A DNA stretch of 64,000 bases, taken from contig NZ_CP133779.1 of assembly GCF_034347425.1 (NCBI RefSeq), positions 372,001-436,000 on the forward strand, given 5' to 3'. This DNA is from Undibacterium sp. CCC3.4 (GTDB taxonomy: Bacteria > Pseudomonadota > Gammaproteobacteria > Burkholderiales > Burkholderiaceae_D). The translations under genes were made by a program, and so were the position numbers. Below, one piece after another: positions 9,887 to 45,477 of this stretch. A model generated the notes under the pieces. That model was not told the DNA's origin. It saw only the letters and a list, made by a program, of their open reading frames with translations, and did not search any database. Numbering within the stretch: the first letter of the stretch is position 1; the number at the start of each line of letters is the position of its first letter.

Positions 9887-10247
9887 GGGGTCGACCAGGT
9901 TTCGACAGGGGTTGCAAAGCAGCGCAGGGCATACCGAGGCCAGACTACCTCGTAAATACAATCTGAACATTTACAACTGCAAACGATAATTCGTACGCAT
10001 TAGCCGCGTAATACCGGCTAACCTTACACCACCTCGTCCATAGGGTGGGCTGGCAACAGCAGTAAGGACATTCATATGGAATCGTCTCAGGCCGGGTAAC
10101 TTGGTCAGGGCTTAAATAATAGGTTACTCGTCTGTCCCAAGCGCGTGCGTCCGCGTGGTACGGGTTAAATCAAATGGCAGCACTAAGTATGTAGAACTGT
10201 CTGTAGAGTGCTTCTGGACGCGGGTTCGATTCCCGCCGACTCCACCA
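9887..10247 (+). ncRNA. ssrA: Transfer-messenger RNA (tmRNA)
   Basis: tmRNA rescues stalled ribosomes by adding a degradation tag. The acceptor arm is formed by GGGGTC at the 5' end and GACTCC before the encoded ACCA at the 3' end. The T-arm GGGTTCGATTCCCG is plain. The resume codon GCA at 9979 opens a tag frame reading ANDNSYALAA followed by TAA (9979-10011), with the usual LAA-type end. The total length of 361 fits a one-piece tmRNA. The 3' end is directly followed by an integrase gene, so this locus is probably the attachment site of the accessory region that follows. Confidence 0.96.
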
Positions 10248-21006: not shown

Positions 21007-21240
21007 TGGGTATTCCGGAGGAACGTGACCAGTGATTCCGGCATCGTGACCAGTCATTCCATTTTAACGTGACCGCCCATTCCGGGCGAACGTGACCGAT
21101 TTCATGCCTTTTGCGGAATCAGCGGTCACGATACCGGAATCAACGGTCACGATGCCGGAATGGCGTTGTACTGCCCAATAATAGTGTTACGCATTTTGCA
21201 ATCTACCGGGTACGCTTCTAGCCTTTTGACTGGAGAAAGT

Positions 21241-22764
21241 GTGCCCGCACCAAGGATCAATATGCGTAAAATCAAGGATGTATTACGGCTTAAGCTTGAC
21301 GCCAAACTGTCGCACCAACAGATCGCCGATGCGTTGGGGCTATCCAAGGGTGTCGTTACCAAGTACGTAGGCCTAGCTGCTGCCGCCGCTCTGGACTGGG
21401 CCGCAGTACAGAGCCTCGATGAGGCCGCGCTGGAGCGACGCCTGTTGGTTGGCTCCCAAAAAACACGCGATTATGTACAACCCGATTACGGTCGCATACA
21501 CCACGAGTTGCGGCGCAAAGGCATGACATTAATGCTGCTCTGGGAGGAACACCGCGCCGACTATGCGGACCAGCAGACCTATGCCTACTCACAATTTTGC
21601 GATAACTACCGGCGCTTCGCAAAGCAACTTAAACGCTCAATGCGCCAAGTCCACCGTGCTGGCGAGAAGCTGTTTATCGATTATGCTGGCCCCACCATCG
21701 CTCTCACCGATGGTGGCCGAGCGCACATCTTCGTGGCCTCGATGGGAGCCTCCAGCTACACCTACGCATGTGCCACACCGCATGAAACAATGGCCGACTG
21801 GCTCGAATCGACGGCGCGTGCGCTGGCATTTTATGGTGGCGTCACTCAGCTCATCGTGCCGGATAATCCGAAGGCAATGATCGCCGACGCCAACCGCTAC
21901 GAACCGCGCAGCAACGACACTGTGCTCGACTTTGCGCGTCACTATGGCACCTCCATTTTACCGGCACGCCCTTACCATCCGCAGGACAAGGCCAAGGCAG
22001 AATCAGCGGTGCAAATCGTCGAACGCTGGATCATGGCCCGTCTGCGCCACCAGCAGTTTAGTAGTGTGCACGAGGTCAATCAGGCGATGATGCCCTTGCT
22101 GACACAGCTTAACGATAAGCCATTCCAGAAGCTCCCTGGTAGCCGCGCCAGCACCTTCGCCGAGATTGATGCGCCAGCCTTGCTGTCGTTGCCGCTACAA
22201 CGCTACGAAATGGCCCACTTCAAAACTGTCAAGGTTCATATTGACTACCACGTCGAAGTCGAGCGCCATCGCTATAGTGTGCCGCAAACTCTAGTGGGTC
22301 AGGAACTCGAAGCGCGCATCACCACAACTGCGGTGGAGTTACTGCATCGCGGCCAACGTGTCGCCAGTCACATTCGTAACGCCCGTGTCGGGGGCTTTAC
22401 CACCATTGCCACACACATGCCAGCGGCGCACCGTGCCCAGATGGAGTGGACGCCGCAGCGCTTGATCCACTGGGGCGAGAGCATTGGTCCTGCGTGCGCC
22501 GAGGCGGTCACGCGTTTGATGGCAGAAAACCGACATCCTGAGCATGGCTACCGCGCTTGTCTGGGTCTGCTGTCGCTGGCCAAGCGTTACGGTAAGGGAC
22601 GACTTGAGGCGGCTTGCATGCTGGCCCTGCAGATCGGCGCGTGCCAGTATCGCCACGTGAATGACATTCTGAAGAACAACCGCGACCAGAGTGTTCCAGT
22701 GGCTGCCGATGAATGGATTAGCCCAGAGCATGCCCACTTGCGTGGCCCTGGTTACTATCAATAA
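21241..22764 (+). CDS. istA: IS21-family transposase IstA (IS408-like group)
   Basis: The DDE transposase of the second IS21 element. The start is GTG at 21241 (PAPRINMRKIKDVLRLKLDA) behind GGAGAAA. An upstream extension to 21160 lies in the terminal repeat zone and is rejected. The 507-residue protein has an N-terminal helix-turn-helix (LSHQQIADALGLSKGVVTKYV) and the catalytic core with Asp in LFIDYAGPT, Asp in IVPDNPKAM and Glu in DKAKAESAVQ. It looks intact. It is only distantly like the IstA at 12-13.6 kb. Confidence 0.9.
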   Translation: MPAPRINMRKIKDVLRLKLDAKLSHQQIADALGLSKGVVTKYVGLAAAAALDWAAVQSLDEAALERRLLVGSQKTRDYVQPDYGRIHHELRRKGMTLMLLWEEHRADYADQQTYAYSQFCDNYRRFAKQLKRSMRQVHRAGEKLFIDYAGPTIALTDGGRAHIFVASMGASSYTYACATPHETMADWLESTARALAFYGGVTQLIVPDNPKAMIADANRYEPRSNDTVLDFARHYGTSILPARPYHPQDKAKAESAVQIVERWIMARLRHQQFSSVHEVNQAMMPLLTQLNDKPFQKLPGSRASTFAEIDAPALLSLPLQRYEMAHFKTVKVHIDYHVEVERHRYSVPQTLVGQELEARITTTAVELLHRGQRVASHIRNARVGGFTTIATHMPAAHRAQMEWTPQRLIHWGESIGPACAEAVTRLMAENRHPEHGYRACLGLLSLAKRYGKGRLEAACMLALQIGACQYRHVNDILKNNRDQSVPVAADEWISPEHAHLRGPGYYQ

Positions 22765-22775
22765 GGAATAAGACG

Positions 22776-23543
22776 ATGATGATGCACACCACACTGGCGC
22801 AACTGCGCACCTTGAAACTGGACGGCCTGGCGGCAGGCCTTGAAGAACAAATGGCACAGCCCGGCGTGACCGCCTTGAGCTTCGAGGAACGCATCGCGCT
22901 ACTGATTGATCGCGAAGTCCATGCTCGCAATGACCGCAAGTTGTTGCGCCTGCTAAAAAATGCGCATTTAAAATATGGGCAGGCGGCGATTGAGGATATT
23001 GACGTTCGCGCTGGTCGCGGAATTGACCGGCGCGAGGTAATGAGTCTGGCTTTGGGCGACTGGGTCAGCGCCGGGCACAGTGTATTGGTGACGGGGCCAA
23101 CGGGGGCTGGAAAATCATGGCTGGCGTGCGCACTGGCGCAATACGCATGCCGGCGGGGTTACTCAGCAATTTACCAACGCGTCCCGCGCTTGCAGGAAGA
23201 ACTACGCATCCGGCACGGCAGTGGCGTCTTCGGCAAATGGTTACTGCAGTTGGCAAAAACCGACGTATTGGTGCTTGATGACTGGGGGATGGGTAGCATC
23301 GATGGCATGACACGTTCGGACTTGCTTGAGATTATTGATGACCGAGCGGGCCACAAGGCCACTATCATCACCAGCCAATTGCCAGTCGAGCACTGGCATG
23401 CGTGGATCGGTGACGCCACCATTGCCGATGCCATTCTGGACCGCATCATGCAGCGCAACCACCGTTTTACGCTGACCGGCGATTCGCTGCGCACGGAGCG
23501 CCCTAAAATCATCAAAAAGGAGAAAAACATCGACCTATCGTGA
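22776..23543 (+). CDS. istB: IS21-family helper ATPase IstB
   Basis: A 255-residue AAA+ ATPase partner of the preceding IstA, 11 bases downstream. Walker A is GPTGAGKSW near residue 110 and Walker B is VLVLDDWGM near residue 165. The sensor region IITSQLPVEHWHAWIGD is typical. The protein is complete and ends before the right terminal repeats. Confidence 0.9.
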   Translation: MMMHTTLAQLRTLKLDGLAAGLEEQMAQPGVTALSFEERIALLIDREVHARNDRKLLRLLKNAHLKYGQAAIEDIDVRAGRGIDRREVMSLALGDWVSAGHSVLVTGPTGAGKSWLACALAQYACRRGYSAIYQRVPRLQEELRIRHGSGVFGKWLLQLAKTDVLVLDDWGMGSIDGMTRSDLLEIIDDRAGHKATIITSQLPVEHWHAWIGDATIADAILDRIMQRNHRFTLTGDSLRTERPKIIKKEKNIDLS

Positions 23544-23634
23544 CCGTAGAGGTTAAAATTTGACCGCGTAACGCCATCTTATGCGCAGCGGTCACGTTCA
23601 CCAGAATGAGCGGTCACGTTCGCCGGAATACCCA

Positions 23635-24120
23635 GTTGACTGGTACAGCCGGAAGCTGCTGTCTTGGCGGTTGTCGAACACGATGGATGCGGGGTTTTGC
23701 GTGGACTGCTTGGAAGAAGCCATAAAATGGCATGGAACGCCGGAGATTTTTAATACCGATCAGGGTGCGCAGTTTACCAGCCAGGCCTTTACTGGGCTGC
23801 TGCTTAGAAACGGCATCAAAATCAGTATGGACGGTTGCGGTCGGGCGCTGGATAATATTTTTGTTGAGCGCTTATGGCGCAGTGTGAAATATGAAGAAGT
23901 GTATTTGAAAAAGCATGAAAGTATGCCGGAATTGGTGATCGGCTTGGCGAACTATTTTATGTTCTACAACGCTGAGCGTAAACATCAATCATTGGGTTAT
24001 CAAACACCGGAAACGGTGTATAGCTCAGGCGTGGGCGGTGGTGCCAAGATCGTGAATAAATTTGGTGCTGAACTGCCTGATTCAAAAATGCAGGAAAAGA
24101 AAAGCACGGTAGTGATGTAG
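23635..24120 (+). pseudogene. IS3-family transposase OrfB, C-terminal fragment
   Basis: About 160 residues of the integrase core: VDWYSRKLLSWRLSNTMDAGFCVDCLEEAI, then the second catalytic Asp in NTDQGAQFTS and the Glu in VERLWRSVKYEEVYLK, and the typical C-terminal HQSLGYQTPETVY. The first catalytic Asp lies upstream and is lost, cut at 23634 by IS21 copy 2. It cannot be functional. Confidence 0.88.
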
Positions 24121-34131: not shown

Positions 34132-35049
34132 ATGAAAATTACCAAAAAAATAGTTTTATTCGCTGCGTTGGCAGCCACGTGTGCTTTCGCACAAGCACGC
34201 ACACCACTGGTCTTGTTGACTGATTTTGGACAAGCCGATGGTGCCGTGTCTGCCATGCGCGGGGTGGCATTTGGCGTTGATCCGCAATTAAATATTTCCG
34301 ATCTCAGCCATCAGATACCGACCTACGATATCTGGACCGCCGGCTATCGCTTATATCAGACCGCCAACTACTGGCCAGAGGGCACGGTTTTCGTTACCGT
34401 GGTCGATCCAGGCGTGGGTACGGAGCGCAAATCTATCGTCTTGAAAACCAAGAACGGTCGCTACTTTGTCGGCCCGAACAATGGTCTATATACCTTGATC
34501 GCCGAGCGTGATGGCATTGCCGAGATACGGGAAATCGATGAAAAAATCAATCGCTTGCCGGGTTCCGCAGACAGCTATACCTTCCATGGTCGCGACGTTT
34601 ACGCCTATACCGGTGCCAGACTGGCGGGCGAGATCATCAAGTTTGATCAGCTCGGTCCCTTACTTGATCCAACAACATTAGTCACAATCAATTACCAACA
34701 AGCCGACCGCTCAGGCAATACCTTGCGTGGCAATATACCTGTGTTGGACGTCAATTATGGCAATGTCTGGACCAATATTCCGAAGTCATTGTTAGATCAA
34801 TTGTCTATCCACGCAGGAGATAAAATCAGTCTGACTATCTTCCGTAAAGATAATCAAATCGCCAGCTTAACTGTTCCGTTTGAAAATTCTTTTGGCGGCG
34901 TAAAAACTGGTAAGCCAGTCGCTTACATCAACAGTTTATTAAATTTTTCTTTAGCCATTAATCAGGGCGACTTTGCTCGGAAATACCATATTCAATCCGG
35001 GGCAGAATGGCGCATCGAAATTGAAAAATCCGCCACGTCAAAAAAATAG
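34132..35049 (+). CDS. Exported SAM hydroxide adenosyltransferase-like protein (DUF62)
   Basis: A 305-residue protein of the SAM-hydrolysing family that splits S-adenosyl-L-methionine into adenosine and methionine. The family marks are TDFGQADGAV at residues 30-39, a DPGVGTER motif at 92-99 and FHGRDVYA at 151-158, which hold the Asp, Arg and His of the known active site. Unusually, it begins with a clear signal peptide (MKITKKIVLFAALAATCAFAQA), so the enzyme would act in the periplasm. It is convergent with the ABC ATPase of the adjacent methyl-compound operon. The substrate in the periplasm is unknown. Confidence 0.85.
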   Translation: MKITKKIVLFAALAATCAFAQARTPLVLLTDFGQADGAVSAMRGVAFGVDPQLNISDLSHQIPTYDIWTAGYRLYQTANYWPEGTVFVTVVDPGVGTERKSIVLKTKNGRYFVGPNNGLYTLIAERDGIAEIREIDEKINRLPGSADSYTFHGRDVYAYTGARLAGEIIKFDQLGPLLDPTTLVTINYQQADRSGNTLRGNIPVLDVNYGNVWTNIPKSLLDQLSIHAGDKISLTIFRKDNQIASLTVPFENSFGGVKTGKPVAYINSLLNFSLAINQGDFARKYHIQSGAEWRIEIEKSATSKK

Positions 35050-35101
35050 CAGCTTGTTGGGTATCAGCGATGCGCGGAATACATCCGAGCATCGCTTGGC
35101 A

Positions 35102-36706
35102 TCAAACCAGCTCAGAAGAGTTGCGTGCTACCCATTGATCAAGCCAGCCGATTTTCATTTCCGGCACTGCGGATAAAAGTTGATCTGTGACGCGGTCAAA
35201 CGGCGGCGACAAGACTATCTCCGGAGCGCCGTATCGGATGATTTTTCCTTCATGCAGCACCGCTATCGTATGCGCGATGGCGCGCCCGATCGCGATGTCA
35301 TGGGTAATGAAGAGCAAAGACACGCCGGTTTCACGCTGCAAACGCGCGAGCAACTTCAGCACGCCTTGAGCCACGAGTGGATCGAGTGCCGAGGTCGGCT
35401 CATCACAGACAATCACTTCCGGCTCAGCCGCCAAGGCGCGGGCGATGCAAATTCTTTGTTTTTGGCCGCCCGATAACATGGCCGGATAATGATTGCGCAA
35501 GCCAGGATCAAGATCGACTTGGCACAACAGTTCATCCACCCTATCCGCTCTCTGCGTGCGGCTGTTCGCCCAGTACAAGGATAGAGGACGTCCGATGATT
35601 TCGGCGACCGTATGACGCGGGTTCAAGGCCAGATCAGGCAATTGATGAATCAACTGTATCCGGCGCAAATCATCCTGACTACGGTCTTGAATCAAAGGCG
35701 CTAAAGCTTGCTGGTGAAATACGATGTCGCCATGCGTGGCCGCATTCAGCCCGCACAGCACCCGACCTAGCGTCGACTTCCCTGAGCCGGACTGGCCAAC
35801 CAGCACCAGAGTATGCGCGGCCGGCAATTCCAGCGACACCTCCGAGAGTACCGTCGCACCGGTCGCATAGCGCATACTGAGCGCACGCATGGATAGGAGA
35901 GGTGCACTGGCTTTGGTCGCTACTGCGGCTGTTCTGGCATGCACTTGTACCAATTGGCGCGTGTAGTCGTGTCTCGGACGGTTGATGATTTGGGCCAGCG
36001 AGCCATATTCCAGCGCCTTACCATTCCGCAGCACCAAGATGTCATCGACAATTTGTGTCACGACTGCCAGATCGTGACTGATATATAAAGCAGCCACACC
36101 GGTAGCAGCGATGGCATTACGCATTGCCAGCAACACCCCGATTTGGGTTGTCACATCTAAGGCTGTGGTCGGCTCATCAAAGACGATCAAATCAGGTTGC
36201 GGACACAAGGCCATGGCGATCATTGCCCGTTGTAACTGACCTCCCGAGGCTTGATGCGGGTAACGCTGTAAAAACTGGCGTGGTTGCGGCAGACCGAGCA
36301 GAGCAAACAGTTGTTCGGCTCTCTCCAAGGCTTGCGCACGGCTTAAGATGCCATGCTGCACCACGGTTTCAATGACCTGCTCACCGAGTGTGAAACTGGG
36401 ATTAAAAGCGCTGGAAGCAGATTGCGCAACATACGCAATTCGGCTTCCACGCAATTGCGTCAATTCTGCTTCGGGCAAGGAAGAAATCGTGCGCCCGTCG
36501 AAGACAATTTCTCCCGCAGATAATTTCAGCCCCTCGCGGAAGTAGCCCAACGCCGCCATGCCTAGAGTCGATTTACCAGCGCCGGATTCGCCTATCAATC
36601 CCAGCACTTTGGCTTTTGGCAAAACAAAGGAAACCTGATCGACTAAGGTTTTTCCTTGCGTCGTGACAATCGATACATTGTTAAATGCTAATAAGGTGTC
36701 AGACAT
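35102..36706 (-). CDS. Fused double ATPase of a dipeptide/nickel-type ABC importer
   Basis: A 534-residue protein with two complete ABC domains. Domain 1 has Walker A GESGAGKST, signature SGGQLQR and Walker B LIVFDEPT. Domain 2 (from about 280) has GQSGSGKST, signature LSGGQKQR and VIVCDEPTS. Usually DppD and DppF are separate, so this is a DppD-DppF fusion. Its start overlaps the stop of the permease gene by 8 bases. It completes an importer with the upstream binding protein and two permeases. Both sites look catalytically intact. Confidence 0.9.
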   Translation of the reverse strand: MSDTLLAFNNVSIVTTQGKTLVDQVSFVLPKAKVLGLIGESGAGKSTLGMAALGYFREGLKLSAGEIVFDGRTISSLPEAELTQLRGSRIAYVAQSASSAFNPSFTLGEQVIETVVQHGILSRAQALERAEQLFALLGLPQPRQFLQRYPHQASGGQLQRAMIAMALCPQPDLIVFDEPTTALDVTTQIGVLLAMRNAIAATGVAALYISHDLAVVTQIVDDILVLRNGKALEYGSLAQIINRPRHDYTRQLVQVHARTAAVATKASAPLLSMRALSMRYATGATVLSEVSLELPAAHTLVLVGQSGSGKSTLGRVLCGLNAATHGDIVFHQQALAPLIQDRSQDDLRRIQLIHQLPDLALNPRHTVAEIIGRPLSLYWANSRTQRADRVDELLCQVDLDPGLRNHYPAMLSGGQKQRICIARALAAEPEVIVCDEPTSALDPLVAQGVLKLLARLQRETGVSLLFITHDIAIGRAIAHTIAVLHEGKIIRYGAPEIVLSPPFDRVTDQLLSAVPEMKIGWLDQWVARNSSELV

Positions 36707-37526
36707 CCTGGCCCCCTCTGCTACTGCGCTGCGTCCAGTCTAGCCACCAGTCGACCACGATATTAATCGAAATAGCCAGAACAGCAATTGCAATCCCCGG
36801 ACTCAAGGCGGCCCACACACCGAACACGATGCCGTCCTTATTTTCTTTCAGTAAGCCGCCCCAATCGCTCGATGGCGGTTGTACGCCCAAACCTAAGAAA
36901 GAGAGCGTCGACAAAAACAAAATGGCAAATACGAGACGCAGACCGAATTCGGCCAACAAGGGCGCAAATACATTCGGCAGCACCTCGCGCCATAAAATCG
37001 ACGCACTGCCCTCACCACGCAGCTTGGCAGCTTCGACGTAATCCATCGCCGTCACATCGAGCACCAGAGAGCGACTGATCCGAAATACCCGCGTCGAATC
37101 CAACACCGCCATGACGGTGATGATCAAGGTAAGGCTGCTGGGAAAGATGGTCAACACCACCAAGGCGACAATCAGGGAAGGGATTGCCATCAGCAAATCA
37201 TTGACTTGATTCAAAACCACATCAATTTTTCCGCGATACAGCCCGGCGACAAACCCGCTCACTCCGCCGATCAGAAATGCCAGCGCCGTGGCAACAAAGG
37301 CGATCAGCAGGGTCACTCTTGCGCCCCAAATCAAGCGAGACAGCAAGTCGCGCCCAAGGTTATCGGTACCCAGCAAAGCCTCCGCAGAAGGAGGATCCCA
37401 ACTCGTGCCTATCACTTCATTGAGCGCATAGGGTGCCAGCAAAGGCGCAAACAATGCGCTTGCCAGCACGGCCCCTAAGATGCTCAAAGCAAGAGCTGCG
37501 GCAATGGTCAGACGGGGTAGCTTCAT
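36699..37526 (-). CDS. DppC-type ABC permease
   Basis: A 275-residue inner-membrane permease with six hydrophobic segments and the DppC hallmark LLGTDNLGRDLLSRLIWGAR near the first third, plus the EAA loop MDYVEAAKLRGEGSASILWREVLPN. It overlaps the previous permease gene stop by one base. It belongs to the six-gene operon led by the TonB-dependent receptor. The substrate is set by the binding protein. Confidence 0.9.
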   Translation of the reverse strand: MKLPRLTIAAALALSILGAVLASALFAPLLAPYALNEVIGTSWDPPSAEALLGTDNLGRDLLSRLIWGARVTLLIAFVATALAFLIGGVSGFVAGLYRGKIDVVLNQVNDLLMAIPSLIVALVVLTIFPSSLTLIITVMAVLDSTRVFRISRSLVLDVTAMDYVEAAKLRGEGSASILWREVLPNVFAPLLAEFGLRLVFAILFLSTLSFLGLGVQPPSSDWGGLLKENKDGIVFGVWAALSPGIAIAVLAISINIVVDWWLDWTQRSSRGGQDV

Positions 37527-38482
37527 CAGCGTGGATACCTCAAGCGCGGGTTATTCAACAGTATCGCGATATCGGCGCAACGGTTCAAACCAATGTAGAT
37601 GGCAGCAAAAATCAGCGCAGTGGCCTGCACCACCGGGATATCACGTTTGATCACACTGTCGACCATATACTGCCCCATTCCCGGATAAACAAACACCACT
37701 TCCACCACCACCACGCCCACCAACAAATAGGCCAAGTTAATAGCGATGACATTCATGATCGGTGCCAAGGCATTGGGTAAAGTGTGATGCCAGACTATGC
37801 GCGCACGGCTCAATCCCTTCAAACGGGCCATTTCGATATACGGTGCCGACAAGATATTGAGCAAGGCGGCGCGGATCATATTGATCATATGACCGAGAAC
37901 CGCCAACACCAGCGTGATCGTTGGCAACAAAATGGCCTCCAGACGTTGCATCAGCGACATACCTGGGAAAACTGTCGCGCTGCTGTCGAACCAGCCTAAT
38001 TGCACCGAAAAAAACATGATGAGCAGATAGCCGACAAAGAATTCAGGCAGGGCAACCGTGCCGCGGGTGACGGTGGTGATCAGACGATCTGCAATACCAT
38101 TTTTATTCAAAACGGAAATTGCCCCCAACACCAGTGCCAGCGGAATCGCCAGTAGCGCAGTCATGCCCGCCAGGAATACCGTATTGCCGAGTCGCAGTCC
38201 TATGCTGCTGGCAATATCCTGGTGGCTGGCATAACTGACACCAAAGTTACCATGCATCAATCCGCTCAACCACAGCGCATAGCGTAACAATGCCGGCTCA
38301 TTGAGTCCGAGTTCGGCACGAATCGCGGCAATGGCCGAAGGTGTGGCAGATTGCCCCAACATTGCCGTCGCCACATCCCCTGGCAGCATTTGCGTGCCAG
38401 CAAAAATCAGTACTGAAACAAGCAGCAACAGCAGCACTGCAGACAAGATGTGACGTGCTATCAGAGCAGCGATGGTTTTCAT
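37526..38482 (-). CDS. DppB-type ABC permease
   Basis: A 318-residue inner-membrane permease of the peptide/nickel importer family: MLPGDVATAMLG, RAELGLNEPALLRYALWLSGLMHGNFG and the EAA loop PYIEMARLKGLSRARIVWHHTLPNAL. The start MKTIAALIARH (ATG 38482) lies 8 bases after the binding-protein stop. The longer frame to 38506 overlaps that gene and is less likely. It pairs with the next permease gene. Confidence 0.9.
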   Translation of the reverse strand: MKTIAALIARHILSAVLLLLLVSVLIFAGTQMLPGDVATAMLGQSATPSAIAAIRAELGLNEPALLRYALWLSGLMHGNFGVSYASHQDIASSIGLRLGNTVFLAGMTALLAIPLALVLGAISVLNKNGIADRLITTVTRGTVALPEFFVGYLLIMFFSVQLGWFDSSATVFPGMSLMQRLEAILLPTITLVLAVLGHMINMIRAALLNILSAPYIEMARLKGLSRARIVWHHTLPNALAPIMNVIAINLAYLLVGVVVVEVVFVYPGMGQYMVDSVIKRDIPVVQATALIFAAIYIGLNRCADIAILLNNPRLRYPR

Positions 38483-38490
38483 TTTGAAAT

Positions 38491-40065
38491 CTAACTCTCT
38501 AACCAAACTTTTTCGGCAACTTTCAAACCACTCATGGCTAAACCCGGAACAACGGTAAATCCGCCGACGTTCGCTCTGCTGGCGTCGAGGCCATCGGAAC
38601 GGACCGGCACAATTTCACTGCCTTGCCCGGCAATCAGAAATTGAATATCATGATACATCTGCGTGCGTTTTGCTTCATTCAACTCCGCTCTGGCTGCGCG
38701 CAGCAGCGACTCGAAGCCCTCGTTGTTCCATGCCGTTTCATTCCAGGCCGCCCCTGCGGCAAAGAATAAAGACAGGGTCGCATCGGCGGTCGAGCGCGTG
38801 CTGATGTTCGATGCTACAAAGGATTTTTTCAGCCAAATATTTTCCCAGTAACCATCGGCGGGAACGCGTTCCAGCTCCAAGGGTATACCGGCTTTTTGTG
38901 CGCTGGCCTGAAACAATTGCGCCGCATCGACCGCACCGGAAAAACCGGCATCAGAAACCGACAGCAGCAACTTGCCGCTGTATCCCGATTTTTTCCAATG
39001 AAAGGCCGCTTTCTCCGGATCATAGGGAGTGGCCGCAAGATCAGCTGCGAAATAACGGTTAGACGGCACAATCGGCTGATCGTTACCGATGGAGCCGATG
39101 TTAGCAAGAACAGACTTCAGTATTTGCGGTCGGTTCAGCGCATACTTCAGCGCCAATCGTACATCCTGATTATTAAACGGTGCGCGGTCAGACAAGCCTG
39201 GGAATGTAAAGATTTCCGAATCCTTGGAGCGATGCACATTGATCTTATTCGATGCCGAAACCCGTTTAAACAAACGCGGCTCGATGCGGTTGACGACATG
39301 AATTCTACCGCTCAACAGCGCGGCGATACGAGCCGTACTATCGTTGTAAGCAATCGTCTCTACCGAATCCACATGAGCGCGTTCGGCATCCCAATAATTG
39401 GCATTGCGACGGGTTAAGGTGCGCACTCCCGGTTGGAAATTTTCCAACACATAAGCACCGGTACCGATGCCTTTATCAAAATTACTGCCATCCGGGCCTA
39501 TACCAAAATGCACATCGGTGAGCAGATAAGGGAGATCGGCATTGCCCTGCTTAAGCATAATCGTCAGTTCATCGATTGCCGTCGCTTTGAGCGTGAGTAC
39601 TGAATCCAAATACACTTTGGCGGCCGAAGCAGAATTGGCACCGCGATGATGATTGAGCGAATAAATGACATCTTGTACCGTCAACGGCTTACCGTTATGA
39701 AACTCGACGCCCTTGCGCAGCTTGATGATCCATTCCTTCGCGCCTTTTCGCGCTTCCCAGCTCAGCGCCAGTGAAGGACGCAAACCGCCGGACTCATTGA
39801 GTTCGATCAAGGTATTAAATAATTGCGCACCAACGACAAATCCATACATTTCCACATAGCTGGCTGGATCAAGACGATCAGTGCTGGAAGCATTATCGAT
39901 TCCCAGGCGTAGATGCCCACCCTTTTTAGGGGTATTGGCAGCATTCGTACCATTCGCGGCCTGCTCCAGCATGGGTGCAAGACCAGAAACAGCGAGGCTA
40001 GTCAAACCTTTGAGCAGGGTTCGGCGCTCATGATTTGACCTCGCTTCTGAAGCAAAAAAAGTCAC
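38491..40065 (-). CDS. Family 5 extracellular solute-binding protein with Tat-type signal
   Basis: A 524-residue periplasmic binding protein of the peptide/nickel family (SBP_bac_5). It has the segment GGHLRLGIDNASSTDRLDPASYVEMYGFVVGAQLFNTLIELNESGGLRPSLALSWEARKGAKEWIIKLRKGVEFHNGKPLTVQDV. The N-terminus has twin arginines (NHERRTLLKGLTSLAVSGL), so export may be by the Tat system. The GTG start overlaps the homocysteine methyltransferase stop (GTGA), so they are coupled. Binding the same substrate as that enzyme acts on is plausible, for example a methylated sulfonium compound. Confidence 0.88.
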   Translation of the reverse strand: MTFFASEARSNHERRTLLKGLTSLAVSGLAPMLEQAANGTNAANTPKKGGHLRLGIDNASSTDRLDPASYVEMYGFVVGAQLFNTLIELNESGGLRPSLALSWEARKGAKEWIIKLRKGVEFHNGKPLTVQDVIYSLNHHRGANSASAAKVYLDSVLTLKATAIDELTIMLKQGNADLPYLLTDVHFGIGPDGSNFDKGIGTGAYVLENFQPGVRTLTRRNANYWDAERAHVDSVETIAYNDSTARIAALLSGRIHVVNRIEPRLFKRVSASNKINVHRSKDSEIFTFPGLSDRAPFNNQDVRLALKYALNRPQILKSVLANIGSIGNDQPIVPSNRYFAADLAATPYDPEKAAFHWKKSGYSGKLLLSVSDAGFSGAVDAAQLFQASAQKAGIPLELERVPADGYWENIWLKKSFVASNISTRSTADATLSLFFAAGAAWNETAWNNEGFESLLRAARAELNEAKRTQMYHDIQFLIAGQGSEIVPVRSDGLDASRANVGGFTVVPGLAMSGLKVAEKVWLES

Positions 40066-41024
40066 TGCTTGCCCGGTAACGAGGACGCCAGCGCTGCAAT
40101 GTGATCAGGCCCAATGCCACAGCAACCACCGACGATCGTTGCACCGGCATCACGCCATTGCTGCGCAAACTTCAGGTACTCCGATGGGTCCAAGTCATCA
40201 CGTAATTCGCTCAAACCATCGTTGGCATCCTCAGCATGATAATGCGGAGCAAAGGCGTTGGCGTACACACCAATTTGCGGTCTATGCTCAGCACTGACTT
40301 CGGCAAATACCGCAGCAGCATCGCGCACTGCCGCAGCCATCACGCCGACATGGCTGCAATTAAACAGCAAAGCTTTGACGCCCAGCGCCAGCGCGGTACG
40401 CGCCGCCTCTGTCACCGACTCACCCGAGCGGATAGTCGGTGCCAGTGTTCCTTCTGTAACCGCATGGTGCTCGCTATCTTCGAGCGTAAACGACAACCAG
40501 AATGGCCGCGCCGATACTTGATCGATCGCCGCTTTGATCGCCCAGGCTTCCTGAGTCGATCCCTGCGTCTCCGCCAACCACACATCGACAAATGGTGCCA
40601 GCCCTGCGACTAAAGGATTGAGAATGCGCGCCGCATCAGTTGGGTTAAACAAATCTGGCCGATACGAGCCGAATGGTGGCGGCAAGGAGCCAGCGAGTTG
40701 AATCGTTCCAGCCGCATTGGCCGCCGCATTGGCCGCACCAATGGCCGCACCAATGGCCTCGCGCCCGATACGACCCGCCAAGCTGGCCAGCTCGCCCGCT
40801 CGCGCAGTAAACACCTCTTCACCCAAATGGAAGGGTACCAGGGCGTAGCTATTCGTGGTAATGAGTGCTGCGCCCGCCGCAATATACGCATCATGGACTT
40901 GCCGAACATACTGCGGCCCTTCCATCAAAGCCAAGGCCGACCACTCTGGCTGGCGAAACGGCGCGCCGATTTTTAACAGCTCGCGCCCCATTCCACCGTC
41001 TAATATAGTTATTTTTGGCAGCAT
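40062..41024 (-). CDS. mmuM: Homocysteine S-methyltransferase
   Basis: A 320-residue zinc-dependent methyltransferase that makes methionine from homocysteine with S-methylmethionine or SAM as donor. The start reads ILDGGMGRELLKIG and the mid part ITTNSYAL. The zinc cysteines are in LLFNCSHV and in GGCCGIG near the C-terminus. A 12-base tandem repeat codes for AAIGAANAAANAAG at about 95-110, a low-complexity insert. It is coupled downstream to a solute-binding protein and lies 39 bases after the TonB receptor gene. The context points to use of an imported methyl donor. Confidence 0.9.
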   Translation of the reverse strand: MLPKITILDGGMGRELLKIGAPFRQPEWSALALMEGPQYVRQVHDAYIAAGAALITTNSYALVPFHLGEEVFTARAGELASLAGRIGREAIGAAIGAANAAANAAGTIQLAGSLPPPFGSYRPDLFNPTDAARILNPLVAGLAPFVDVWLAETQGSTQEAWAIKAAIDQVSARPFWLSFTLEDSEHHAVTEGTLAPTIRSGESVTEAARTALALGVKALLFNCSHVGVMAAAVRDAAAVFAEVSAEHRPQIGVYANAFAPHYHAEDANDGLSELRDDLDPSEYLKFAQQWRDAGATIVGGCCGIGPDHIAALASSLPGKQ

Positions 41025-41063
41025 AAATTGACATCCTTCACGATTCTTGAATAACTTTTAAGC

Positions 41064-43436
41064 TCAAAAAGCATAACTGACTCTGGCATAGTAATACGCA
41101 CCGTTCACGCCAAACGGGGAAACGTGGGAATACTGATCGTAGTTAAGACTTTGGTACACCGAAGCCGGCATTTTTGTTGGATACTTATTCAACAGATTAT
41201 CTGCACCGAAATTGACTTTCAAGTGATCTGAAAAACTATAGCCAAGGTCTACCGCGGTGATATAAGTGACATCGGTATTATAAGTAAAATATGGCCCAGG
41301 AGCATATCCTTGTACTTGGCTGGTTTTGCCATACACCGTTTCGCGCAGCGTCAGTTCCCAGTCATTTTTAGTATAAATGGCGGCGATGGAAGCCTTGCCA
41401 CGAGGTGTAGCGGTAGTCAGATTCGATCTCTGCACCGGATCAACCAGAGAAAGTCCCGCCGCTTGCAGTGCTGCGGGTGCTGCCGATATATGTTCAATCG
41501 TGGTCTTGTTGTAGCCACCGTTGACTATCCACTTAATGCTGCCGAGCGCGCCGAAACGACTGATTGTGTCTATGCTGACATCAATACCCTGCGTTTTGGT
41601 ATCCACACCATTGGTAAAAAAGGCCGCGGAAACACTGCCACTTGGTACGCCAGCCGGAATCGCTGCACCATTTGCGGCTACCGCTGCTGCCGCTAATTGT
41701 CCGGAGATGGAGGCTGACTCGATGATGCGGTTATTGATATTAATTTGATAGGCATCAATCGTGGCATGGACGCCTTTTACCGGCTCTACAACCAGCCCGA
41801 CACTGATGTTCTTTGAGGTTTCCGGTTTCAAATTGGGCGCCCCAAGCACGTTCGCACCAGCCGAACCGAGCGGCAATTGAACTTGTGCAAAACCTGTCGT
41901 CACCGTCGTTGCTGAGTAATATTGCTGCGCCAATGTTGGTGCATGAAAGCCATTGCTCAAGGTCGCGCGCAATGCCACGGCAGGACTGAAATCATACCGT
42001 GTCGACAATTTCCCCGTCACCTTATTGCCAACCTGTTGGTAATGCTCGGCGCGCGTCGCAAAACCCAATTCCCATTGCGAAGTAATATGCGCGGTCAGAT
42101 CCACATAGGCAGCAAGGCTATTACGTGTTGCATCCACTTGGTCAGTTTTTTGAAAGCCCGGAAAAGCCGATGAGCCGCCTAAGTAGTAAGAATTGGCTTC
42201 GCCAGCCCCAATCCGGAAGGTTTCGTAGCGGTTCTCCAATCCTAAAGCCAACAGCAAAGGGCCTGACAGACCATCGAGTGTAAATGGTCGGCGAACATCA
42301 ACATTCGTGGTCAGCTCCGAGGAAGTAAACGAGCCAACACGAAACTTACTTTGTGCATTGCCAAAATCATTGAGCAGATCAGGATTGACGGTACGAATAT
42401 TCTCTAACTTGGCCTGATCCCGACCATAGGTAGTGCTGACGTCCCAATTCCATTTGTCGCTGGTGATACCTTTCAATCCGGCTGTCAGCCCGAAGTCATT
42501 CTCGCTGACTTTTTCTTGCGGGGTAAAACCATTCGGATACAGCAGATTGACGGCTGGACTGATGGCGTCTGGTTGACGGGGATTTTCATTGGCTTGGGCA
42601 TCTCGGTGCGCTACGGTAGCAAAACTGTAGAACGTCAGATCCGGCGTGATCGGCTTTTCAAAGTTATACGCACCGGTAAGCACCGAGCTTTTCGGATCGC
42701 CTTGTACCAAGGCCGCTTGCACGCCACCACTATCGCCGCTGCGATTCGAGTAACCATGGTAGTGCGCAGAAAAACTCAGGTTAAGTATGCCATCGTCAGC
42801 GACGATAAAGCCTTTATTCGCCTCAAATTGTTGCGTCTGCCCGCCACCATCAATGTATCCACCACCCAGCAATGACACGCTGGTACCGGTAGGAGATTTT
42901 TTTAAGATGATATTAATGACACCCGCAATCGCGTCGGAGCCATACTGTGCCGCAGCACCATCTTGCAAAATTTCAATGTGATCGATCGCCGCTAAGGGAA
43001 TGAAATCCAGATCGACTGCATTCGAACCTTGTGCAGGATCGGAATCGGCATACAAACTGGCGGAGACATGTCGACGCTTACCATTAATGAGCACCAAAGT
43101 ATTACCGGGGCTTAAGCCACGCAGTTGAAAAGTGCGCGCCAGCGCGCCGACGTCATAGCCAACCGCTGGGGTAGTTAACGATGGCACTAAGCTTTTTAAG
43201 GCATCCAATACATTGGTTTTCCCGGTACTGGCAAGATCTTCGGCACCGATGACGATCACTGGCGTCATGCTGTCGCGCACTTTTTTTCCACTATCACGCG
43301 TCCCGGTGACAATCACGGTACCGGCGGCAAGATCCTCATTACGGTTATCTGCATCGGCAGCCTGTGCCACGCTGGCCGAAGCGTTGGCAATTAAGGCACA
43401 AACGCCAACGAGGCGAAAATAAGCGCGAGTTTCCAT
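41064..43436 (-). CDS. TonB-dependent outer membrane receptor
   Basis: A 790-residue receptor starting METRAYFRLVGVCALIANASASVAQA (signal peptide) behind AGAGGAACAG. A plug domain follows with VIVIGAEDLASTGKTNVLDALKSLVPSL and RGLSPGNTLVLINGKRRHVS. The barrel has many aromatic-ended strands and a C-terminal YARVSYAF phenylalanine. It is the first gene of the operon with mmuM and the ABC importer, so it probably moves the same compound across the outer membrane. Energy would come from a TonB/ExbBD system such as that at 60.3-62.9 kb. Upstream of the start I saw no riboswitch. Confidence 0.93.
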   Translation of the reverse strand: METRAYFRLVGVCALIANASASVAQAADADNRNEDLAAGTVIVTGTRDSGKKVRDSMTPVIVIGAEDLASTGKTNVLDALKSLVPSLTTPAVGYDVGALARTFQLRGLSPGNTLVLINGKRRHVSASLYADSDPAQGSNAVDLDFIPLAAIDHIEILQDGAAAQYGSDAIAGVINIILKKSPTGTSVSLLGGGYIDGGGQTQQFEANKGFIVADDGILNLSFSAHYHGYSNRSGDSGGVQAALVQGDPKSSVLTGAYNFEKPITPDLTFYSFATVAHRDAQANENPRQPDAISPAVNLLYPNGFTPQEKVSENDFGLTAGLKGITSDKWNWDVSTTYGRDQAKLENIRTVNPDLLNDFGNAQSKFRVGSFTSSELTTNVDVRRPFTLDGLSGPLLLALGLENRYETFRIGAGEANSYYLGGSSAFPGFQKTDQVDATRNSLAAYVDLTAHITSQWELGFATRAEHYQQVGNKVTGKLSTRYDFSPAVALRATLSNGFHAPTLAQQYYSATTVTTGFAQVQLPLGSAGANVLGAPNLKPETSKNISVGLVVEPVKGVHATIDAYQININNRIIESASISGQLAAAAVAANGAAIPAGVPSGSVSAAFFTNGVDTKTQGIDVSIDTISRFGALGSIKWIVNGGYNKTTIEHISAAPAALQAAGLSLVDPVQRSNLTTATPRGKASIAAIYTKNDWELTLRETVYGKTSQVQGYAPGPYFTYNTDVTYITAVDLGYSFSDHLKVNFGADNLLNKYPTKMPASVYQSLNYDQYSHVSPFGVNGAYYYARVSYAF

Positions 43437-43818
43437 CTGTTCCTCTTTTTTATCAATTTTTATGAACTTGTCTTGCAAAATCATTTGCACTTTTACAAAA
43501 AGCAAAACGAGTGACTCGCAGCAAAAAATAAGCAGGAGAGAATTAAATCAAATTAGTTCAACGCTATAAACGATTTTTTTTGCATTTGCTTATTTTGGGG
43601 CGCACATCGACGCCCCGCTTGAATCTGCCGAACAAAAAGCTTGACCGTTGCCGATTGCTCGCTGCGATTAATTTAGGTCTGCGCATGATTGCAAATTTGT
43701 TAATTTATGTTAAAAAAATTAACACTCCCTACTGTTTGTCCTTGCGAATCGCCTTACGCACACCTAAACTTAATAAATAAGCATGTCTTATGGGCAATTA
43801 TTTTTCAAGGAGAACGGT
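43437..43818. other. Divergent intergenic region between the TonB receptor and chemoreceptor genes
   Basis: About 380 bases, AT-rich, with a hairpin GGGGCG...CGCCCC near 43597-43617 that lacks a T run. Both promoters must lie here. No SAM, cobalamin or other riboswitch fold was recognised. Confidence 0.4.
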
Positions 43819-45477
43819 ATGGATATCAAAAATATGCGCATAGGAACGCGCCTTGCCATGGGCTTTGCTGCGGTGATTGGCATCTTCCTGTTAGTCTGCG
43901 GGTGTGCACTCTACACTGCGGCCAATTTGGCCAAGGCCGAGAAGTGGAACACCCATACTTACGCCGTACTGGAAACGGGTACCAGCATGCTCGCAGCGAT
44001 GATCAACATGGAAACGGGTGCCCGTGGTTATTTACTGTCTGGTGAAAGCCGCTTTCTCGAACCATGGAATGCTGGCCTGAAAAATTTCGACCAAGCCTGG
44101 ACCGAAGCAAAAGACTTGACTGCCGACAATCCGAGTCAACAACGACGTTTAAGTGATATGAAGGCACGCCATCAGGAATTCAGAGGCGTCGCCGAATCCC
44201 TGTTTGCCTATCGTAAAACGATCGCTAGCGGCGAGCACACGGTGGCCGAATTGGTGAGCGAATTTGCCAAGGGGCGCGACAAAGCAGCAATGGATGGATT
44301 TCGCTTACTGCATGCCGATTTTGATAAAGCGGAGCGAGATTTACTGGTGATCCGCTCTGCCGAGGCGGAGTCACAGCGGGCACTCAACCAAGACAGCATC
44401 ATCGGTGGCAGCATTCTGGCCTTGATTGTGGCCGCACTCATGGGCACTTGGGTAACGCGCTCAATCACTGCACCGATTCAGATCGCCTTAAGCTTGGCAG
44501 AAGCAGTTGCCAAGGGTGATCTGAGCGTGAACATTCAGGTTCAAGGCAAGGATGAAACCGGGCGCTTATTGCAAGCCTTGAAGAATATGAGCGACAGTCT
44601 GGTCAACATCGTGACGGAAGTGCGTTCCGGCACCGAGAGTCTTGCCACCGCTTCGACCGAAATTGCGCAAGGAAATATGGACCTGTCTGCGCGCACCGAA
44701 TCACAGGCCAGTTCACTCGAAGAAACCGCTTCATCGATGGAGGAGCTGACCAGCACCGTGCGCCAAAATGCAGACAATGCACGGCAGGCTAACCAACTGG
44801 CGCAAAGCTCGTCTGAGCTGGCCTTGAAGGGTGGCCAAGTGGTTGCGGAAGTGGTCAACACCATGGGTGCGATTAATACTTCGTCGCGCAAAATCGTCAA
44901 CATTATCAGCGTGATTGATGGCATTGCTTTTCAAACGAATATCTTGGCGCTCAACGCTGCGGTCGAAGCAGCCCGTGCGGGCGAACAAGGCCGCGGCTTT
45001 GCCGTAGTGGCGACGGAAGTACGCAATTTGGCACAGCGTAGCGCGGCCGCCGCGAGAGAAATCAAAACCCTGATCGACGACTCGGTAGAAAAAGTTGATG
45101 TCGGCAGCAAACTGGTCAATCAAGCTGGCTCAACCATGACCGAGGTGGTGGACAGCATCAAACGGCTGAGCGACATTATGGCCGAGATCAGCGCCGCCAG
45201 TATCGAGCAATCTGCCGGTATCGAACAGGTCAATGAAGCCGTCATCGATATGGATGATATCACCCAACAAAATGCCGCCTTGGTGGAACAAGCGGCGGCG
45301 GCGGCTGGCGCAATGCAAGAACAAACGAGGAATTTGAATCAAGTCGTCAGCGTCTTCAAAATGGCGAATGATTCCACGCTTATGCATACTGCAACGCACA
45401 TGACTGCCAAGCCGCTGACTGATTTTACACGGAGCAAAACTGCTGCCAAGAAGAACATACCGAGATTAGTCAGATAG
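43819..45477 (+). CDS. Methyl-accepting chemotaxis protein with CHASE3-type sensor
   Basis: A 552-residue transmembrane chemoreceptor. MDIKNMRIGTRLAMGFAAVIGIFLLVCGCAL is the first TM, followed by a periplasmic helical domain (CHASE3-like, including ETGARGYLLSGESRFLEPWNAG). Next come a second TM (SILALIVAALMGTWV), HAMP, and the cytoplasmic signalling helix with the hairpin tip IDGIAFQTNILALNAAVEAARAGEQGRGFAVVATEVRNLAQRS. An AGGAG site lies before ATG 43819. It is divergent from the receptor operon and overlaps the APH gene end. A link to that operon's ligand is speculative. Confidence 0.92.
   Translation: MDIKNMRIGTRLAMGFAAVIGIFLLVCGCALYTAANLAKAEKWNTHTYAVLETGTSMLAAMINMETGARGYLLSGESRFLEPWNAGLKNFDQAWTEAKDLTADNPSQQRRLSDMKARHQEFRGVAESLFAYRKTIASGEHTVAELVSEFAKGRDKAAMDGFRLLHADFDKAERDLLVIRSAEAESQRALNQDSIIGGSILALIVAALMGTWVTRSITAPIQIALSLAEAVAKGDLSVNIQVQGKDETGRLLQALKNMSDSLVNIVTEVRSGTESLATASTEIAQGNMDLSARTESQASSLEETASSMEELTSTVRQNADNARQANQLAQSSSELALKGGQVVAEVVNTMGAINTSSRKIVNIISVIDGIAFQTNILALNAAVEAARAGEQGRGFAVVATEVRNLAQRSAAAAREIKTLIDDSVEKVDVGSKLVNQAGSTMTEVVDSIKRLSDIMAEISAASIEQSAGIEQVNEAVIDMDDITQQNAALVEQAAAAAGAMQEQTRNLNQVVSVFKMANDSTLMHTATHMTAKPLTDFTRSKTAAKKNIPRLVR

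Follow-up and report, generated by a model that had tools for sequence, protein, structure and literature searches.

A putative S-methylmethionine scavenging operon headed by a TonB-dependent receptor in Undibacterium sp. CCC3.4

In Undibacterium sp. CCC3.4, six genes on the minus strand (43436-35102) of a 64,000-nucleotide stretch of DNA, hereafter the window, appear to couple the import of a methylated sulfur compound to methionine formation. The window comprises positions 372001-436000 of one 4.59 Mb contig (NZ_CP133779.1; assembly GCF_034347425.1), and its operon encodes a TonB-dependent receptor (TBDR), a homocysteine S-methyltransferase of the MmuM/Msh type, a family-5 solute-binding protein (SBP), two ATP-binding cassette (ABC) permeases and a fused double ATPase. 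With a probability of roughly 0.7, this is an acquired operon for scavenging S-methylmethionine (SMM), one of the main compounds in which plants transport reduced sulfur, and it would serve as a route to sulfur or methionine from plant material. The five-gene core from methyltransferase to ATPase is already known, and the receptor is the new part.

The six genes form one tight operon, as the sequence-only reading of the window had described. The TBDR gene (41064-43436, in an open reading frame (ORF) that stays open to 43505) comes first and starts with the ATG at 43436, preceded by GAGGAACAG; its product, the proposed outer-membrane entry, has the plug and barrel domains (PF07715, PF00593). 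A gap of 39 bp separates it from the methyltransferase gene, mmuM (40062-41024, PF02574, E 8e-51). The genes for the SBP (38491-40065, PF00496), permease B (37526-38506, PF00528 and PF19300), permease C (36699-37526, PF00528) and the fused ATPase (35102-36706, PF00005 in two stretches) follow, the four later junctions being overlaps of 4, 16, 1 and 8 bases. The Pfam matches leave no ambiguity about these families, and the GTG start listed for the SBP is provisional. No minus-strand terminator-like site is listed between the TBDR and mmuM genes, though such sites are uninformative here (15 in the region vs 11.8 in shuffled sequence).

In the proposed pathway, the TBDR would take SMM, or a small SMM conjugate, across the outer membrane, which is the weakest step. 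The SBP and its two-permease, fused-ATPase importer would then carry SMM into the cytoplasm, since the SBP falls in an mmuM-linked group and some distant relatives adjoin carnitine catabolism genes. There, the methyltransferase is predicted to move the S-methyl group of SMM to homocysteine, yielding two methionines; this step is proposed because of the enzyme family, the residues described below and the reported activity of the Ti-plasmid enzyme Msh. The sequence-only reading had suggested a sulfonium methyl donor that is turned into methionine, and SMM in that role is well supported by the msh-type cassette, MetJ-like boxes and the grouping of the SBP.

A search of the named-genome collection with mmuM gave 559 relatives, the best 80 of which form the 80 loci counted here; contig ends cut some of these loci, where absences are uncertain. 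The complete mmuM-SBP-permease-permease-ATPase set occurs in 24/80 loci, with 50-65% identity per protein (54-65% for permease B, 52-64% for permease C and 50-59% for the ATPase). Because the same five genes recur together in these loci, their arrangement in the window is not due to chance. The methyltransferase gene comes first in 19 of the 24 cassettes, as in the window, and last in five, all of Hyphomicrobiales type (Rhizobium, Falsochrobactrum and two further Rhizobiales). Two other loci, from bee Acetobacteraceae, carry mmuM followed by a TBDR, and the remaining 54 have neither arrangement. The cassette genera include Dickeya, Brenneria, Erwinia, Lonsdalea, Agrobacterium and Rhizobium, which are plant-associated, as well as Novispirillum and Zobellella. 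Among the best 80, Novispirillum itersonii is the closest relative (63, 61, 65, 60 and 59% for the five core proteins). The expectation that all six genes would recur together with the DUF62 gene that lies beside the operon thus held for the five-gene core alone; neither the receptor nor the DUF62 (SAM_HAT) gene is conserved with it. In Shinella, the cassette adjoins genes for SfnB and LLM proteins, which are linked to sulfur acquisition by annotation or prior knowledge. Around the 54 non-cassette mmuM loci, a family-3 type binding protein recurs as a neighbor in 15 and an amino-acid permease in 6. This tally is a hint only: some ORFs were wrongly chosen where the DNA is G+C-rich, no neighbors were obtained for 13 loci, and one locus per type was scanned.

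The same core is found on opine plasmids. A plasmid search with the SBP returned 637 records, the 40 best of which come from Shinella, Agrobacterium, Rhizobium, Rahnella and Ochrobactrum. On pAtAG67 (L148), the five genes sit between ocd and traR of an octopine-type operon, and the Ti record NC_002377 has the ABC genes at the same place, with two ATPase genes; the mmuM region ahead of them lies outside the annotation table of that record. These plasmid genes are the ones named msh and oph, and purified Msh reportedly makes methionine from SMM and homocysteine. By analogy, the link to Ti-plasmid Msh is the strongest single pointer to the putative substrate. Passages of PMC4575208 include a methionine synthase gene, msh, in the occ operons and cite a paper whose title has A. 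tumefaciens getting sulfur from an SMM-derived opine (Flores-Mireles, Eberhard and Winans, 2012); the occ operon is opine-controlled according to the part of PMC3907764 that deals with it. The msh-oph genes and the window core share a methyltransferase, a family-5 SBP, two permeases and an ATPase in the same order, at 50-59% identity per protein (L148, L080), and the window methyltransferase is 55% identical to the enzymes of both occ-type clusters. However, the msh-oph genes lie within an opine operon and without a receptor, whereas the window operon has no opine genes and adds a TBDR. An importer for an SMM-containing conjugate, be it an opine such as sulfonopine or a dipeptide, instead of free SMM is unlikely: neither an opine oxidase nor a peptidase is among the window operon genes, and non-Agrobacterium cassettes in annotated records (Rahnella, Shinella) have no adjoining opine genes.

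A second line of literature concerns MHT1 genes. According to passages of PMC3228920 (2011), these lie beside dppABCD, have metboxes and are suggested to form enzyme-transporter pairs, a pairing untested there. Like the window operon, MHT1-dppABCD combines a homocysteine S-methyltransferase gene with adjacent genes for a dpp-like ABC importer, which was put forward as the enzyme's own transporter; the MHT1 arrangement differs in being MetJ-regulated, and no receptor is mentioned in those passages. The Enterobacterales cassette loci appear to be this same MHT1 group. Tandem MetJ-like boxes precede the cassette in 13/13 of them, matching 12-13 of 16 positions and starting some 71-106 bases before the start codon. 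These are the best boxes in the upstream 350 bp; 200 shuffles gave one as good in 0-1.5% of cases and other windows of the same loci in 1.8-3.6%. At 13 other loci, comprising 11 cassettes plus the two from bee bacteria, no MetJ-type box exceeds 10/16, so that 0/13 qualify. A scan of 13 loci for S-adenosylmethionine (SAM) riboswitches gave none above the gathering score ahead of the non-enterobacterial cassettes (Zobellella was outside the scan), and the two SAM_alpha matches in the bee loci precede a downstream gene for a Cys/Met PLP enzyme. The E. coli mmuPM system shares SMM import and MmuM with the proposed operon, but imports by a single permease, whereas the window has an ABC system plus receptor. 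The substrate of the ABC cassette is thus largely known already from two separate literatures, which are joined here: chromosomal loci, MetJ-type MHT1-dpp genes and octopine-plasmid msh-oph fall into one family, and a widespread cassette annotated merely as a generic ABC transporter in the records examined is tied to SMM use.

The methyltransferase passes the PF02574 gathering score (174 vs 22 bits), and E152, C223, C301 and C302 are kept in 80/80 relatives; these are presumably the active-site Glu and the three zinc-ligand cysteines. Within the host lineage the gene is isolated, and the window operon appears to be acquired and lineage-specific. mmuM is absent from 42/42 other genomes of the genus at E 1e-40, and 115/115 other sampled genomes of the host family lack a strong MmuM relative; 106 of these give nothing better than matches at 22-34%, for the most part in MetH-sized ORFs, and nine give no match. 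In a class-wide sample, 15/368 other genomes have a MmuM relative at E <1e-30, none with these ABC genes nearby at >40% identity. Viral contigs searched with mmuM gave no relative. An empty site in congeners was not located, the flanking helicase having no match at E 1e-200 in 10 congeners (a search without positive control); a 20 kb DNA search of congeners gave, among the matches listed, hits on genes for a methyl-accepting chemotaxis protein (MCP) and an MFS protein. Elsewhere, an Enterococcus faecium plasmid (NZ_CP064407.1, L218) carries mmuM and an amino-acid permease gene between IS6 elements, with a SAM_HAT gene, then ECF-type transporter genes, some 5 kb away.

The ABC system proved to be of the mmuM-linked kind and not a plain peptide or nickel system, given its SBP grouping, the Ti-plasmid msh type and the MetJ-like boxes of the Enterobacterales cassettes. 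In the SBP tree, a branch with SH-aLRT support of 85 sets apart the 30 rows labelled mmuM-linked, among them that of the window, and the window SBP pairs with that of Novispirillum (support 98). A grouping with mmuM-less systems, which would have spoken against the sequence-only reading, was thus not found. This is a quick tree with flagged long branches, in which row L053, lacking a usable hit, was left out. For one row labelled mmuM-linked (L198), mmuM is not annotated in either of the two stretches examined, which reach the start of the record; a gap of about 1.6 kb at that point is large enough for the gene. Five rows were named carn beforehand, three of which (L194, L195, L203) have annotated carnitine genes and two a CocE/NonD hydrolase. 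Among the rows listed from the plasmid search (the 40 best and 60 spread over the 637 records), SBP identities drop from at least 53% to at most 43%, with nothing between. Below this gap, 11 contexts were examined and no mmuM was present in their annotated flanks: the same three have carnitine 3-dehydrogenase, two CocE/NonD hydrolase only, four aminotransferase or dehydrogenase/oxidoreductase clusters, one oxidoreductases, and one no annotated transporter genes. Because carnitine, aminotransferase and oxidoreductase genes surround them, relatives of the importer seem, from this context, to handle small amines rather than peptides. Carnitine is a trimethylammonium zwitterion and a chemical analogue of SMM. 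The PepT-type ABC importer of L194, L195 and L203, with an SBP 40-43% identical to that of the window, is encoded among carnitine catabolism genes on plasmids of Rhizobium and Paracoccus and is a candidate (acyl)carnitine importer.

Several observations count against an SMM operon. The methyltransferase falls below the cut-off of the E. coli MmuM equivalog NF007020 (111.5 vs 215 bits). Upstream of the operon, the leader/promoter region (43437-43782, minus strand) has neither a MetJ box, a riboswitch nor another known RNA element in the scans made, and control of the window operon by any of these was dropped. Less related dpp-type ABC genes adjoin mmuM in Psychrobacter and in one genome of the class-wide sample (G373, at 28-39% identity), so the pairing is not unique to the cassette. 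Other points would suit a nickel/cobalt-metallophore or ordinary peptide importer lying beside the methyltransferase by chance. The fused ATPase exceeds the cut-offs of TIGR02770 NikD (357 vs 318.7 bits) and TIGR02769 NikE (347 vs 332.6 bits), whole-protein scores that sum two matched stretches of a double ATPase and discriminate poorly. The predicted SBP fold is about as close to nickel binders as to opine and dipeptide binders, with NikZ and NikA among its structural neighbors; the AlphaFold model is mediocre, with a mean pLDDT of 68.7 and residues 1-52, 58-78 and 195-241 under 50. Such an importer is nevertheless highly improbable: the SBP stays far below all Nik, Opp and Dpp equivalog cut-offs listed (best NF045468, 129 vs 600 bits), groups with mmuM-linked SBPs, and has enterobacterial counterparts under MetJ-like boxes.

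The remaining objections concern the receptor. SMM has a mass of about 164 Da and does not obviously need a TonB receptor, and 0/24 other cassette genomes have a related TBDR at E 1e-60. At that threshold, a related receptor occurs in 5/30 genomes: that of the window, both bee genomes and, without the cassette, Nitrospirillum and Novosphingobium. Closer relatives (E <1e-120) are found in 26/115 other genomes of the host family, where 10 of the 31 places listed were examined. In seven (L183-L189), the receptor gene lies beside genes for a flavin amine oxidase of the Tat type, cytochrome c and a RidA-type protein, with no mmuM seen; the other three (L182 on a short contig, L190 and L191) lack the amine oxidase set. 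The nearest receptor relatives are therefore without mmuM in the stretches examined and mostly tied to amine oxidation, which counts against the sequence-only reading of the receptor. The L183-L189 cluster itself resembles a receptor-equipped system for oxidizing amines or amino acids in the periplasm (by eye, L183 and L184 show twin-arginine and signal sequences). In L184 there are, in addition, genes for a luciferase-type monooxygenase, an acyl-CoA dehydrogenase-like protein and an NMT1-type binding protein, which together resemble a sulfur-scavenging set. Because amine oxidase and RidA genes adjoin these relatives, their neighborhood suggests amines or amino acids as ligands of the receptor family.

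The two bee genera, Saccharibacter (L075) and Bombella (L114), Acetobacteraceae of bee habitat, have mmuM, then a TBDR 38% identical to that of the window and of the same broad family, then an NCS1 inner-membrane permease that replaces the ABC system. In the TBDR tree (row L135 left out), the bee receptors pair with second copies and not with the window receptor, which pairs with L182. Since the second copies adjoin a PiuC-like gene (by eye), iron is a possible ligand of the bee receptors, a further objection. mmuM and receptors of this family nonetheless seem to have been joined twice, independently, and these pairings lend moderate support to receptor-mediated SMM uptake.

Two accounts of the receptor therefore have to be weighed. 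It may be dedicated to SMM or a simple SMM conjugate, whose entry across the outer membrane would be driven by energy coupling, an arrangement that would have arisen at least twice, here and in the bee bacteria with NCS1, from a family otherwise often tied to periplasmic amine oxidation; this proposal is tentative and put at somewhat less than an even chance. Alternatively, the core is an SMM cassette, the receptor transports another ligand, be it a ferric siderophore or an amine, and its gene simply ended up at the head of the operon. Its absence from the other cassette genomes, the amine oxidase neighbors in seven of ten places and the PiuC-like gene in bee bacteria speak for such a history, as does a Rahnella gene annotated FhuE and divergent to mmuM, which shows that receptors can sit there for other reasons. 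Yet the gap to mmuM is only 39 bp, the mmuM-TBDR pairing recurs independently in two bee genera, and amine oxidase and RidA neighbors favor amino acids or amines over iron, which leaves this second account, too, a little short of even odds. If SMM does enter through the receptor, the substrates of TonB-dependent uptake would include a small sulfonium amino acid. No SMM receptor is described in the portions of PMC9409073, PMC3228920 and PMC3792023 that bear on SMM and TonB, a weak negative, as subscription papers are mostly uncovered. Three other receptors near mmuM were set aside: that of Rahnella is of another kind, BLAST showing no similarity between it and the receptor of the window; in L047, an ORF that converges on mmuM gives a weak profile hit (6.7e-7) and was judged by eye another receptor type; and a receptor-like match in L079 is a fragment more than 8 kb from mmuM.

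Convergent to the operon, 52 bp from the end of the fused-ATPase gene, lies a plus-strand gene (34132-35049) for an exported SAM_HAT (DUF62) protein, judged probably outside the system. Its orientation and signal peptide are as first described, the N-terminus, MKITKKIVLFAALAATCAFAQA followed by RTP, being a clear signal peptide by eye. Both domains are present (PF01887, PF20257), and D92, R99 and H152 lie in the expected motifs, which we take to be the Asp-Arg-His triad from work on PH0463; the protein scores below the NCBIfam (R)-SAM hydrolase equivalog cut-off (143 vs 350 bits). The sequence-only reading had raised this enzyme as a possible part of the system, which would then handle SAM: SAM or its hydrolysis products would be imported, and the exported SAM_HAT would split SAM into adenosine and methionine in the periplasm. 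What favors this is that the SAM_HAT gene and the cassette are adjacent here and that SAM_HAT, like mmuM, is absent from 42/42 congeners at E 1e-40. A further hint is genome G282 (L212, G282:C35:41000-56462, ~6.7-12.2 kb), with two SAM_HAT genes back to back, one of them sharing bases with the beginning of a TBDR gene whose product is 31% identical to the window receptor; an amino-acid permease gene comes next. However, a signal-like N-terminus is, as read, present only in the copy that does not overlap the TBDR gene, and a TGA is flagged in both matched frames. This cluster is possibly a SAM/methionine scavenging operon, and the support that it and the shared absence lend to the SAM_HAT link is weak.

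Wider searches separate the two loci. SAM_HAT occurs in 0/80 mmuM loci within the flanks examined (hits of at least 100 aa, E 1e-8), and the PF01887 family in 2/27 mmuM genomes, both Novispirillum and one of them a cassette genome (1/24); those proteins, of 251 residues, lack a signal peptide as judged by eye, and the 14 kb examined contains no mmuM. Exported relatives stand apart from mmuM, as in a genome of the host's order (G518, 63-65%, beside a clpB-like gene), in Aeromonas (59%, signal peptide by eye) and in E. coli. The E. coli gene lies between yigE and uvrD, encodes a protein 57.6% identical to that of the window and likewise with a signal peptide by eye, and has DNA matches in 2374/5426 genomes; in strain KE47 it is annotated as a pseudogene. 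A contig of the viral collection (L213) also encodes a SAM_HAT at 55% identity with a signal peptide by eye, and L215 (7149-8051) and L216 are among the loci where an exported SAM_HAT gene stands apart from mmuM. A SAM-handling system is accordingly very unlikely, and SAM_HAT as an operon partner was rejected as the main reading; the supposed joint conservation of the two loci was not found. Judging by these sequences, exported SAM_HAT is a common stand-alone protein, possibly serving more generally to break down SAM outside the cytoplasm and recover amino acids, and the copy beside the operon is most likely an independent gene.

On the other side of the operon, an MCP gene (window 43783-45477) adjoins it. 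An MCP gene also lies downstream of three enterobacterial cassettes, two from Rahnella and one from Erwinia rhapontici (L087, L106, L149), the L087 match spanning only the later part of that protein. Further away, IstA/IstB-like and integrase-fragment ORFs at window 21160-24120 (by eye) mark mobile elements in that part of the chromosome, and a tmRNA gene lies at window 9887-10247.

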